Positions 1-59,083 of a stretch of DNA of 64,000 nt are shown one piece after another (the first letter of the stretch is position 1; each line of letters begins with the position of its first letter). Both the position numbers and the translations under genes were made by a program. The notes beneath the pieces were generated by a model. That model saw nothing but the letters and a program-made list of their open reading frames with translations, was not told the DNA's origin and searched no databases. This stretch comes from Deltaproteobacteria bacterium (lineage in GTDB: Bacteria; Myxococcota_C; UBA6777): positions 1 through 64,000 of the forward strand of contig PCBK01000120.1 in assembly GCA_002731275.1 (NCBI GenBank), written 5' to 3'.

Positions 1-96
1 GTTTTTTGCGTCTTCACTTGCAATCATCCACCTCAACAAACTCACCACCCTGTCACTTCGTGACATCCCTCCTCTCAATCCTTTCGAGAGGAGGGA
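1..96. repeat. Composite repeat, module A (left copy)
   Basis: This stretch matches 45639-45734 almost base for base, differing mainly at scattered single positions. It ends in two back-to-back hairpins. The first is 52-64, GTCAC-TTC-GTGAC. The second has perfect 11-base arms, TCCCTCCTCTC at 66-76 and GAGAGGAGGGA at 86-96. The first hairpin is conserved as a structure but not as a sequence in the other copies. The module starts at the window edge, so it may extend further left. The open reading frames across it are hairpin shadows with no coding character. Confidence 0.85.
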
Positions 97-140
97 CCAA
101 ACAGCCCGATATATACGGGGGGGGAACTCGATTTCTGTTC

Positions 141-281
141 CGGCAGACGTTGCACTTGCGTCCAAAGCAAGCGCCCTCGTCGGGCTGATTTGCTTCGTGC
201 GCTTTGCAACATATGCCTCGACAAACTCACCACCCTGAGCCTTCGGCTCTTCCCTCCTCTCAAGCCTTTCGAGAGGAGGGA
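141..281. repeat. Composite repeat, module B (left copy)
   Basis: This matches 45334-45475 with only a few substitutions. It opens with a GACGTTGCA segment and contains the arms GTTGC and GCAAC. It ends with the same hairpin pair as module A: GAGCC-TTC-GGCTC at 237-249, then TCCCTCCTCTC (251-261) with GAGAGGAGGGA (271-281). The last 60 bases of modules A and B are therefore homologous, and their 5' parts differ. Between A and B at 117-124 is a run of eight G; the equivalent place in the right copy has four. Confidence 0.85.
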
Positions 282-307
282 ACATTTGCCCGATATATAC
301 GATAGTT

Positions 308-332
308 GAGGTCGGACACAAGGCCCGACCCT
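308..332. repeat. Composite repeat, module C (left copy)
   Basis: A 25-base segment identical to 45761-45785. It is itself a hairpin: GGTCGG pairs with CCGACC around a loop reading ACACAAGGC. A degenerate inverted version lies at 40111-40134 inside a separate inverted-repeat element. Confidence 0.85.
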
Positions 333-390
333 AATGAGATCCATTCGGTATACACGGAATGTTTGTTTGTATCGCGATATATCGTTTGAT

Positions 391-533
391 ATGCATCGCT
401 CCCCTTGCCAACGAAGTTGAGTGGGGGGAGCTGCCGACCACAAGGGAGGCTGAGGGGGTTCTTGTATCGCTCCTCTTGCCAACAAAGTTTGACAGCGGGT
501 GCTCTATCTGGGCGAAGACTGACTGAGGGGGTT
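391..533. repeat. Composite repeat, module D, two degenerate tandem units (left copy)
   Basis: Two tandem units begin with ATCGCTCC..CTTGCCAAC at about 391 and 465. Each ends in a G-rich arm (GGGGGAGC at 424-431 in the first) that pairs with GCTCCCC. The right copy at 45841-45960 keeps both units in better shape. The second unit here is more decayed. It is followed by about 190 bases with no recognisable gene before the first coding sequence, including a TATACT hexamer at 690-695 that could be a -10 element; no -35 partner was recognised. Confidence 0.75.
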
Positions 534-31687: not shown

Positions 31688-34573
31688 ATGTTTCAGTTTT
31701 TTCGTGTTTGTATGTTGATCTTATTGATGTGTTTGGGATGGGGCTGTGCGGACAAGCAAGTCGATCCTTGTTCTCTTGTTGAATGTGGTGTGGGTTTTAA
31801 ATGTATCGAGGGACGATGTGTGAGCGATTGTCCTTCTGGGATGATTTTGTGTGGGGGGCTTTGTGCGGACGTCTCCTTTTCCAACATCCACTGCGGTTCG
31901 TGTGGTAACGAGTGCGCAAAGGGCGAAACTTGTATCGCCCGTCAGTGTGAGTCTCTGTGTTCTTCTAACGAGACCCTCTGCTCGGACACTTGTGTCGACA
32001 CCAAGACCGATCTGGAGAACTGTGGTTCATGTGGCAACAAGTGCGGTGCCTCAGCGAAATGTGAAGGCGGAACATGCACATTGAGCTGTCCACTCCCGCT
32101 GTCCAAGTGTGGTGGTGATTGTGTGAACCTTGTGACCTCAAGAGAGCACTGTGGTACATGTGGAAAAGCCTGTCAGGACGGCGAAATCTGTGAAGCTGGT
32201 GCATGTATTCTCAACTGTCAGAGCGGTTTGCTCGCGTGTGATGGGAAGTGTGTCGACGCAACGGTCAACCCCAATCATTGTGGTGCTTGTGGTAAGGCGT
32301 GTACAGGTGGAGCTGTCTGTACGAGTGGGACATGTGAGTCGAAGTGCCCAACTGGACAGACTAACTGTTCAGGTTCATGTGTGAACACACAGGAGAGCCT
32401 CAAACACTGTGGTGCATGTGGAAAAGCCTGTCAGGATGGAGAGATTTGCAGCGCTGGTGTGTGCAAAAAGACAGGCTGTGCTTCTGGGAAGACGCTGTGT
32501 TTGGGAACATGTACGGATCTCTTCACTGATGTGACACATTGTGGTGCATGTGGAAACGCATGTGGTAGTGGTCAGTTGTGTTGTCAGGGTGTATGTCGAG
32601 ATACCAAAACAGATACGGCACACTGTGGAGCGTGTGGTCTCGCTTGTGGGACCGGACAGATCTGTCAAGGTGGGAGCTGTGACTGCCCCAGCGGATTGCA
32701 GCAATGTAGTGGTCAATGTGTCGATACATCTAACGATCCAAAACATTGTGGTGGATGTGGAGCTGCTTGCCAGAGCGGTGAGACATGTTCGAGTGGGAAA
32801 TGTGGCGTTGTATGTAAGGCTGGACAGACAAATTGTTCGGGGTCATGTGTCGATGTGCAACAATCATTACTTCATTGTGGTGGGTGTGGAAAAACCTGTG
32901 GAAGTGGTGCCTCAGCCTGTAACAATGGGCAATGTGCATGTCCTTCTGGATTGTCGTATTGTTCGAATGCCTGTGTGAACACACAGTCCGAGTTAAAGCA
33001 CTGTGGCGGTTGTGGGAAGAGCTGTGGTGCAGGGGCTGTGTCATGTCAGGGGGGCGAGTGTATCTGTCCCTCAGGGAAGGCTTACTGTAGCGGTCGTTGC
33101 ATCGACATCCTCTCGGATACAAATAACTGTGGTGGTTGTGGAAAGACCTGTCCAACTGGTGAGAAGTGCACCAACGGAACGTGTGGTGTCGTGTGTACTG
33201 GTGGTGGGGTCAAGTGTGGAAACATTTGCGTGGATACACGTTCAGATCTCAAGCACTGTGGTGGTTGCAACAAAGCCTGTGGCAGTGGGGCGACGTCTTG
33301 TATCACAGGACAGTGTGTCTGTCCTTCTGGCGAGGGGTATTGTAACGGCAATTGTATCGATATCCTCTCGGACACAAAAAACTGTGGTGGCTGTGGAAAG
33401 ACCTGTCCCTCTGGAGAAGTCTGTAACGCTGGAACGTGTAAGCCTCCTGTGACAGCATCTTCCATTCAATTGTATAGTGGACGAACCTCTTTTACACACT
33501 GTCTTGTCTCAAGTGGAAAGGCGAAATGTTGGGGGGATAACACAAAAGGAGAGCTGGGGATCGGGACAACCTCTCGTTTGAAGGAACCTTCGACCAAGAC
33601 GATTGATGTGGGGGCTGGACGAACAGTCAAACAGATGGCGCTTGGCCGGTACCATGTCTGCGCGATCCTCGACAACGGGAGTGTCAAGTGTTGGGGATAC
33701 AACGCATATGGTCAGCTCGGCTATGGGAACACGACGACTCTGACACGTCCCTCCTCAAACACTGTGAATCTTGGCACAGGTCGAACAGCCGTCCAAATCG
33801 CGGCTGGATACTATACGACATGTGTTGTCCTCGACGACGCGACCGCAAAGTGTTGGGGGAAAAATAACGACGGTCAGCTCGGGATTGGAAACACCATCGA
33901 TCAGAAGGTTCCGCCTTCTACGCCTATCAATGTCGGCGCTGGACGGACGGTGAAGAAGATCTCGGCAGCTCGTGATGTCGTGTGTGCGTTGTTGGACAAC
34001 AACTCCATCAAGTGTTGGGGAGAGGGACAGTATGGAACATTGGGACTCGGTAATGTCGACTCTCTCAAGGCTCCAGGAGCTGCCATCTCATTTGGTACAC
34101 TCACCGCCAAAGATCTCGAATGTGGTCGCTATCATTGCTGCGCGATCTTAAGTGATGATTCTATGCGTTGTTGGGGACAAGGAGGTGACGGTCAGCTCGG
34201 CAACGGCGCGAAGGCAAACGCCAACGCACCACAGAGCACTTCGATAACAGGTCTTGGTCCGGTGATGCAGATTGGGACGGCGTATCAGAGTTCTTGTGCC
34301 TTGATGAAAGATGGGACCCTCAAGTGTTGGGGATACAACCGCTATGGTCATTTGGGGCAGGGAAACACGACCTCTCTGTCTCAACCCCCTACGACCGCGA
34401 TCGATGTTGGTACAGGACGTTCGGTCAAGCAGTTTGGTTTGGGTCGGTCTTCTGTCTGTGCCTTGCTCGACGACAATACTGTAAAGTGTTGGGGGCGAAA
34501 CGATTACAATCAGCTTGGTTATGGTGATAGCACCCACCGCTACAAACCGTCTGCAACCACGATTGTGTTTTGA
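31688..34573 (+). CDS. Lipoprotein with 13 CGxCG Cys-rich modules and a seven-repeat RCC1 propeller
   Basis: A 961-residue lipoprotein. The ATG at 31688 gives a signal ending LGWGC, and GGAG precedes it. Thirteen tandem modules follow, each with the core HCGxCGxxC-x5-8-C and a C-x6-C-x-G linker. They resemble the STIG1-like modules found in many myxobacterial surface proteins. From about residue 600, seven RCC1-type repeats occur, each with CWG-x-N/G-x-x-x-x-LG-x-G, which should form a seven-bladed propeller. The modules differ at the DNA level yet several are near copies (for example around 32150-32210 and 32400-32460), suggesting expansion by recombination. It is likely an adhesive or ligand-binding surface protein. 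Confidence 0.85.
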   Translation: MFQFFRVCMLILLMCLGWGCADKQVDPCSLVECGVGFKCIEGRCVSDCPSGMILCGGLCADVSFSNIHCGSCGNECAKGETCIARQCESLCSSNETLCSDTCVDTKTDLENCGSCGNKCGASAKCEGGTCTLSCPLPLSKCGGDCVNLVTSREHCGTCGKACQDGEICEAGACILNCQSGLLACDGKCVDATVNPNHCGACGKACTGGAVCTSGTCESKCPTGQTNCSGSCVNTQESLKHCGACGKACQDGEICSAGVCKKTGCASGKTLCLGTCTDLFTDVTHCGACGNACGSGQLCCQGVCRDTKTDTAHCGACGLACGTGQICQGGSCDCPSGLQQCSGQCVDTSNDPKHCGGCGAACQSGETCSSGKCGVVCKAGQTNCSGSCVDVQQSLLHCGGCGKTCGSGASACNNGQCACPSGLSYCSNACVNTQSELKHCGGCGKSCGAGAVSCQGGECICPSGKAYCSGRCIDILSDTNNCGGCGKTCPTGEKCTNGTCGVVCTGGGVKCGNICVDTRSDLKHCGGCNKACGSGATSCITGQCVCPSGEGYCNGNCIDILSDTKNCGGCGKTCPSGEVCNAGTCKPPVTASSIQLYSGRTSFTHCLVSSGKAKCWGDNTKGELGIGTTSRLKEPSTKTIDVGAGRTVKQMALGRYHVCAILDNGSVKCWGYNAYGQLGYGNTTTLTRPSSNTVNLGTGRTAVQIAAGYYTTCVVLDDATAKCWGKNNDGQLGIGNTIDQKVPPSTPINVGAGRTVKKISAARDVVCALLDNNSIKCWGEGQYGTLGLGNVDSLKAPGAAISFGTLTAKDLECGRYHCCAILSDDSMRCWGQGGDGQLGNGAKANANAPQSTSITGLGPVMQIGTAYQSSCALMKDGTLKCWGYNRYGHLGQGNTTSLSQPPTTAIDVGTGRSVKQFGLGRSSVCALLDDNTVKCWGRNDYNQLGYGDSTHRYKPSATTIVF

Positions 34574-45332: not shown

Positions 45333-45475
45333 TCCGGCGGACGTTGCAGTTGCGTCCAAGGCAAGCGCCCTCGTCGGGCTGATTTGCCTCGTACGCTTTG
45401 CAACATACGCCTCAACAAACTCTCCACCCTGAGCCTTCGGCTCTTCCCTCCTCTCAACCCTTTCGAGAGGAGGGA
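45330..45475. repeat. Composite repeat, module B (right copy)
   Basis: Homologous to 141-281. The hairpins are GAGCC-TTC-GGCTC (45431-45443), then TCCCTCCTCTC (45445-45455) with GAGAGGAGGGA (45465-45475). It starts exactly at the stop codon of the OPT gene. The G-run that is eight long in the left copy is four long here (near 45494). Confidence 0.85.
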
Positions 45476-45638: not shown

Positions 45639-45734
45639 GTTTTTTGCGTCTTCACTTGCAATCATCCGCCTCAACAAACTCTCCTCCCTGTCGCTTCGCG
45701 ACTTCCCTCCTCTCAACCCTTTCGAGAGGAGGGA
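45639..45734. repeat. Composite repeat, module A (right copy)
   Basis: Homologous to 1-96. The first hairpin is GTCGC-TTC-GCGAC (45690-45702), with a paired change relative to GTCAC-TTC-GTGAC in the left copy. The second hairpin is unchanged (45704-45714 with 45724-45734). Confidence 0.85.
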
Positions 45735-45840: not shown

Positions 45841-45960
45841 GATATGCATCGCTCCCCTTGCCAACGAAGTTGTGCAGGGGGAGCTGGCGGGCGAAGCCCG
45901 TCTGAGGGGGTCTTGCATCGCTCCCCTTGCCAACGAAGTTGAACTGCAGGGGGAGCTGGA
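45841..45960. repeat. Composite repeat, module D, two tandem units (right copy)
   Basis: Two units beginning GCATCGCTCCCCTTGCCAAC at 45845 and 45915, each closed by GGGGGAGCTGG. Between them, CGGGC-GAA-GCCCG is another five-base stem with a three-base loop. The arms GCTCCCC and GGGGGAGC pair. No gene is visible between here and 46148; an inverted repeat GGATAC-AAT-GTATCC lies at 45983-45997. Confidence 0.8.
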
Positions 45961-58709: not shown

Positions 58710-59083
58710 AGTACCGTCTCCTCTTGTTATCCCGAACTTTGGTTTGGTTTGTTGTGCACACACCAACGTACGCAACATCCCAATGCCTCTTCTTCACTCT
58801 GGGGGGTCCCTGCTAGACACTGTACATCATTTCATGACGATTTTTCCCTGAATTCAGGGAGAAAGGGGATGTCTGACGGGGGGAGGGGGTGCCTTGACGT
58901 GGCACTTTACGGTCTTGTTTATAGTGAGCTTTTTCTATCTTGTCAAGCAAAAATTCATCGTTTTTCACCCCGACATATGCGCTGTGAAAACGATCAGGGC
59001 CTCTCTTATCTCGACCTTGTACTTGCTTTTTCCCCTTTGATGTCGGACATTCTCATCGTTGACCTATCGCAAAGGAGAGCTAT
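58710..59083. promoter_or_regulatory. Divergent intergenic region with a perfect palindrome
   Basis: About 370 bases between infC and the plus-strand gene at 59084. It holds a perfect 14-base palindrome, CCCTGAATTCAGGG at 58846-58859, about 140 bases upstream of infC. It may be an operator. No clear -35/-10 pair was found for either direction. Confidence 0.35.

Follow-up and report, generated by a model that had tools for sequence, protein, structure and literature searches.

Class II intrastrand triplex motifs of the BoxC, PIT and TM_ECO type fold in vitro and occur in large numbers in some genomes (Holder et al. 2015, PMC4666352, which also cites earlier triplex-motif work by Maher and colleagues), but no associated mobility genes have been reported (PMC4666352) and a route by which BoxC/PIT repeats spread has so far been missing. 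Other short intergenic repeats have been described in relation to transposases, with CGTC repeats occurring without a dedicated one, and REPs are reported to avoid divergent intergenic regions (PMC3733652). DUF559 is still listed in Pfam as a 'protein of unknown function'; one report describes VsrA, a Caulobacter DUF559 protein that is needed for a DNA-damage response when a methylase is mutated and is proposed there to act in mismatch repair (PMC12907096). Here we examine a repeat, family A, which on balance we favour as a mobile DNA repeat that is constrained by folding and was probably spread by a DUF559-type nuclease.

The window, by which we mean the whole 64,000-nt stretch of DNA that was analysed, carries four copies of a two-hairpin unit at 52-96, 237-281, 45431-45475 and 45690-45734, as the initial annotation had noted, and all four have the stems and the TTC loop that it described. 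Each of these units extends upstream by a further 11-nt segment (Table 1), so that the G-rich strand reads TCCCTCCTCTC - loop - GAGAGGAGGGA - hairpin 1 - AGGGWGGWGAG, its final segment mirroring the purine arm GAGAGGAGGGA. In unit 4 this third segment is CTCTCCTCCCT, an exact mirror of the pyrimidine arm. Loop 1 is 9 nt long and loop 2 is 15 nt, the latter holding the 13-nt hairpin 1. Examination of ~0.8 Mb, mostly around copies of the repeat, yielded 104 complete 56-nt family-A units, of which 66 are distinct. Two positions of the third segment vary, toggling between A and T and only opposite A-T pairs, which matches the tolerance of an antiparallel purine-motif triplex (G.GC, A.AT, T.AT), and allowed triplets are found at 11/11 positions in 95 of the 104 units and at 10/11 in the other nine. 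Family A thus has the geometry of a class II intrastrand triplex (pyrimidine arm, purine arm, then a reverse-Hoogsteen third segment running antiparallel), and we predict from its sequence, with high confidence, that it folds with the architecture of the BoxC/PIT/TM_ECO type, with hairpin 1 placed inside loop 2.

Table 1. Family-A and family-B repeats in the window.
Feature	Position	Strand	Description	Basis
Family-A unit 1	41..96	-	third segment 41-51, hairpin 1 52-64 (GTCAC/GTGAC), stem 2 66-96	sequence and class II triplex scan, 0 mismatches on the - strand
Family-A unit 2	226..281	-	third segment 226-236, hairpin 1 237-249 (GAGCC/GGCTC), stem 2 251-281	sequence and scan
Family-A unit 3	45420..45475	-	third segment 45420-45430, hairpin 1 45431-45443 (GAGCC/GGCTC), stem 2 45445-45475	sequence and scan
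Family-A unit 4	45679..45734	-	third segment 45679-45689, hairpin 1 45690-45702 (GTCGC/GCGAC), stem 2 45704-45734	sequence and scan
Array context	1..360	.	two family-A units with alternating flanks GTTTTTTGCGTCTTCACTTGCAATCATCC and GACGTTGCACTTGCGTCC...GCAACATATGCC; contig begins inside repeat	
Family-B element 1	399..458	+	same architecture, CTCCCC...GGGGGGAG - loop 2 - GAGGGGG	scan, 1 mismatch
Family-B element 2	45853..45911	+	loop 2 contains GGGC-GAA-GCCC	sequence and triplex scan

A second type of element, family B, adjoins the family-A array of the window with its first copy and also occurs twice downstream of the DUF559 gene of this genome. A weak triplex-like match with 2 mismatches at 58844-58890 (TTTCCCTGAATTCAGGGAGAAAGGGGATGTCTGACGGGGGGAGGGGGT) is possibly due to chance. 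Elsewhere in the window, ~162-nt tandem repeats at 33527-34518 encode TGTTGGGG...CAGCT and resemble RCC1-type (WGxNxxGQLG) repeats, while cysteine-rich coding repeats (CACTGTGGTxxxTGTGG...) at 31889-33434 probably belong to a large surface protein.

Among the 104 units, three fully paired hairpin 1 haplotypes account for most copies (GAGCC/GGCTC in 52, GTCAC/GTGAC in 17 and GTCGC/GCGAC in 11), and the 80 fully paired units compare with 36.8 on average, and never more than 51, when right arms were shuffled 5000 times. Likewise, the covariation score for the whole structure over the 66 distinct rows was 0.187, as against 0.064 after shuffling and no more than 0.047 with slid partners, with three hairpin 1 pairs showing changes on both sides. 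However, the initial annotation had itself named stems that vary without compensation as evidence against its reading, and the recurrent hybrids GTCGC/GCTCC (12 units) and TCGCC/GGCTC (10 units), which lose two of the five pairs and make up 22/104 units, are partly of this kind; two further units lose one pair, so that 24/104 (23%) break hairpin 1. Compensation in hairpin 1 is therefore real but partial. The related claim that sequence drifts while structure is kept holds for the structure, but the variation consists of a few whole-arm haplotypes and two non-complementary hybrids, which would suit replacement of arms or template switching better than gradual drift; arm-copying by quasi-palindrome correction could give the same pattern. 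We rejected a tie between hairpin 1 alleles and flank type, as most haplotypes are found with both types. The unchanging stem 2 and TTC loop proposed at the outset are true of the four window units but not genome-wide, where stem 2 is slightly variable (11/11 Watson-Crick pairs in 85/104 units) and TTC or TCC predominates in the loop. Since pairing is kept above chance while the sequence changes, family-A units are not unconstrained repeats, and to that extent the suggestion of a structured RNA or DNA hairpin under selection, rather than a passive repeat, stands, although nothing points to RNA. This constraint may act on family A as a mobile element rather than through a host function.

The exact arms of stem 2 have 157 matches in the 10.75-Mb draft genome, and 181 copies are found when one end pair is left free, with none for the reversed control pattern. 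Four further genomes from the same family contain no copies, which fits recent spread, and the exact pattern had no matches in a wider genome-contig collection, from which this and very near genomes are possibly absent. Many contigs, including that of the window at its start, begin or stop inside a family-A repeat, and the copy number is therefore probably undercounted. Family-A arrays of 1-5 units lie in 63 places with differing neighbours, mostly at a unit spacing of 182-185 or 258-261, and sit between tandem or convergent genes, with none of the 28 scored lying between divergent genes. Beside the 63 arrays no gene family recurs beyond five lipoprotein-like ORFs (at 5/63 arrays), and there are no recurrent transposase families.

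The sole DUF559 (PF04480) gene detected in this genome scores 118.2 bits against a Pfam cut-off of 20.6 and lies outside the window, on contig C69. It is directly flanked by class II triplex motifs of families other than A, and no family-A copy was found beside a DUF559 gene in the regions of the genome examined. Triplex motifs likewise flank the short DUF559 genes found in two further genomes of the family. Genome contigs of several phyla, among them Cyanobacteria, Chloroflexota, Gammaproteobacteria and Bacteroidota, yielded 80 DUF559 loci, of which 77 lie within 300 bp of a motif, and motif density is 6.7/kb within 150 bp as compared with 0.12-0.16/kb at 1-4 kb and essentially none in shuffled loci; distances were measured to the Pfam match rather than the gene end and carry ~8 bp of uncertainty for + strand motifs. 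In an independent sample of strong PF04480 hits from 274 genomes of one class, a motif lies within 300 bp at 66/70 loci, as against 0/20 for weak matches, which are mostly in large ORFs. Standalone DUF559 genes of Bacteroidota gave 14/16 within the same distance (16/16 by a 7-nt scan), and a crude mechanical-ORF control found a motif at 73/101 DUF559 genes and at 20/184 distant ORFs. The flanking motifs are complete repeats on both sides rather than one split repeat, and are inverted in 99 cases and direct in 22. At genome level, in counts that ignore phylogeny, at least three copies of a common motif subtype are present in 43/60 DUF559-positive genomes and in 20/214 without it (odds ratio 24.5). 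Cases of this link are found in E. coli, where ycjD lies next to TM_ECO, and in S. meliloti, N. gonorrhoeae and Deinococcus. Among open-access papers that mention DUF559 or PF04480, we found no connection to repeats or triplexes. The association of DUF559 with triplex repeats is strongly supported, the mechanism behind it being inferred, and we consider it likely that such repeats generally have DUF559 as their functional partner.

Two observations on individual lineages concern this neighbourhood. Between sapF and fabI of E. coli, ycjD and TM_ECO copies follow sapF in about 3362/5426 genomes (locus L310), while efflux genes follow it in three genomes lacking ycjD there (loci L311-L313), none of which offers a clean empty site. 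In cyanobacteria, the N-termini of DUF559 ORFs at loci L105-L137, for example PSSLAGRGLGGGVP and PHPLTPSPLAGRG, look like translated copies of triplex repeat.

The mirror segment in family A alone has a probability of about 0.003 given composition, and its generality was therefore tested beside DUF559 genes, using hairpins chosen blind to the third segment and arms swapped between loci as a control. A full 8/8 mirror was found in 36%, whereas swapped arms gave 8%, direct copies 9% and the opposite side 3%, these percentages being rates rather than independent counts as the hairpin list has overlapping registers. Furthermore, long-loop motifs beside DUF559 genes hold a hairpin of at least 4 bp in loop 2 in 52/92 cases, with 22.7 expected from shuffled loops, and the palindromes differ between neighbouring copies, such as CGCCGC/GCGGCG and CGACGC/GCGTCG at locus L235. 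The compensatory hairpin first noticed in the window is accordingly a recurring feature of this class of repeat.

A profile of 22 DUF559 proteins matches the endonuclease-like protein 3hrl (E 2.5e-33) and the mobile intron protein 3r3p (E 1.5e-4). Likewise, an AlphaFold model of DUF559 (pLDDT 87) gave Z scores of 15.8 to 3hrl, 13.4 to the EDxHD/Vsr-like homing endonuclease I-Bth0305I (PDB 3r3p_A; 2.2 A over 91 residues) and 10.7 to Vsr (1cw0_A; Vsr structures 1cw0, 1vsr). From these matches we assign DUF559 a Vsr/homing-endonuclease-like nuclease fold and would expect it to cleave DNA; the VsrA data support nuclease activity, yet offer an alternative function.

In Bacteroidota, DUF559 domains lie within long open frames, which we had considered as a domain-fusion negative control and rejected, as these are in-frame cassettes with motifs (11/11 within 300 bp). 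The interrupted genes identified carry motif-DUF559-motif cassettes in frame inside metH, leuS, hsdR (loci L349, L351) and an N6-methylase (locus L356), with the flanking motifs translated as protein. The cassette in metH (methionine synthase) occupies the same place in two genomes (loci L359, L363), where the alignment to Thermus MetH is split into 625-752 and 772-898 by about 152 residues, and that in leuS (leucyl-tRNA synthetase) separates T. thermophilus residues 236 and 240 by about 160 residues (loci L346, L348). Solved MetH and LeuS homologues have no insert at these sites.

We propose that the G-rich strand would fold back twice, from pyrimidine arm through a loop to the purine arm and then through the 13-nt hairpin to the mirror purine segment, giving a class II (purine-motif, antiparallel) intrastrand triplex that may form in vivo. 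A DUF559 gene, usually between inverted copies, would drive spread of the repeat: its product would recognise the folded or single-stranded repeat as DNA opens in replication and cut, and repair would then place a copy of the repeat, or of the repeat-gene-repeat cassette, at new sites. Stems and hairpin would stay paired because only folding copies would be recognised. For family A, the single DUF559 of the genome would have to act in trans, and that DUF559 spread this family is to us a close call that falls just short of even; against it stands that the only gene detected is flanked by other families. More broadly, we lean towards the view that BoxC/PIT-type triplex repeats across bacteria are the recognition and mobility ends of a new kind of mobile element driven by DUF559, an inverted triplex-gene-triplex cassette that can enter genes in frame and seeds non-autonomous repeats including family A, and that hairpin covariation reflects recognition of folded DNA. 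Such a link would give a reason for the persistence of paired stems and mirror segments and would suggest what intrastrand DNA triplexes may do biologically, and it provides a testable enzyme-substrate pair in laboratory strains of E. coli, ycjD with BoxC.

The reverse relationship, in which DUF559 is a parasite, a homing endonuclease that uses existing triplex repeats as harmless places to insert, the repeats themselves spreading by another route, accords with the homing-endonuclease-like fold and with the persistence of repeats in genomes without detected DUF559, 12 of which carry at least 10 motifs and also count against our preferred explanation. We regard it as unlikely, as complete inverted repeats rather than one split repeat lie on both sides, and the metH and leuS cassettes lie in frame with both repeats where solved homologues have no insert. 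Passive repeats, multiplied by recombination and array duplication, with haplotypes arising by gene conversion or quasi-palindrome template switching and neither an enzyme nor structural selection involved, would account for the small number of haplotypes, the recurrent non-complementary hybrids, the fixed spacing of arrays and the presence of most hairpin alleles with both flank types. The scatter of single units and small arrays over 63 places with different neighbours, and the recurrence beside DUF559 genes of the same anatomy of three segments in sequence families that are not related, make this explanation unlikely in our view.

A structured RNA or transcription terminator, as first suggested for the window, would have its hairpins act in the transcript, and hairpin 1 covariation and the position of arrays between tandem or convergent genes, where many may be transcribed, are in keeping with it. 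We nonetheless rejected it as a candidate and give it little credence: Rfam 15 gave nothing above gathering score at the units (the only matches in the window are two tRNAs), 23% of units break hairpin 1, four genomes from the same family carry no family-A copies, and an RNA hairpin leaves the mirror segment without a role. The DNA reading is preferred because RNA reportedly does not form purine-motif triplexes (PMC4666352). Movement as a REP-like element by a RAYT/Y1 (IS200-type) transposase was also rejected, and we hold it to be highly improbable. Family A is intergenic, palindromic, high in copy number, arrayed and sparing of divergent intergenic regions, as REPs are (PMC3733652), but its repeats do not flank a Y1 (RAYT) transposase gene, the genome's own Y1_Tnp genes whose surroundings were examined look IS605-type with a TnpB-like neighbour, and of 30 Y1_Tnp loci sampled from a class none (0/30) lies within 300 bp of a triplex motif at the strict setting. 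By inspection of aligned units, no GTAG or CGTC tag was evident at the palindrome end. Y1 transposase genes on contigs C11, C23, C42 and C114 of genome G000 (loci L032-L035) have an adjacent TnpB-like ORF, and three of the four loci are near-copies of one element.

Among known systems, the vsr gene lies beside a cytosine methylase gene, whereas DUF559 sits between triplex repeats, and unlike I-Bth0305I the DUF559 protein is small, single-domain and located between such repeats rather than in a group I intron. REP/BIME elements with RAYT (GTAG and CGTC families) are likewise short palindromic intergenic repeats in mosaic arrays in tandem or convergent contexts, for which mobilisation by a linked enzyme gene is proposed (PMC3733652), but family A has a mirror third segment and no linked Y1 transposase, and the proposed partner gene encodes a Vsr-like nuclease. 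Rickettsia RPEs are also tolerated in frame inside proteins, yet are palindromes without a cognate enzyme (PMC3733652), whereas the Bacteroidota inserts carry a nuclease gene. BoxC/PIT/TM_ECO are closest, sharing with family A the order of pyrimidine arm, purine arm and reverse-Hoogsteen segment, the G.GC, A.AT and T.AT triplets, an intergenic position, many copies, the occurrence of inverted pairs and frequent replacement of third-segment A by T. They differ in sequence, and family A lies mostly in direct arrays and has loops (9 nt, and 15 nt with a hairpin) beyond the published limits (1-6 nt; 0-10 nt in an earlier search; PMC4666352); their description found no mobility genes nearby (PMC4666352), whereas DUF559 adjacency is found here. 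The arms and loops of family A depart from the TM_ECO/BoxC consensus CCCTCNCCC N3-6 GGGNGAGGG N3 GGGNGAGGG, and family A is thus predicted to work like TM_ECO/BoxC without being a member of that sequence family, and is a new variant of the class II triplex repeats.
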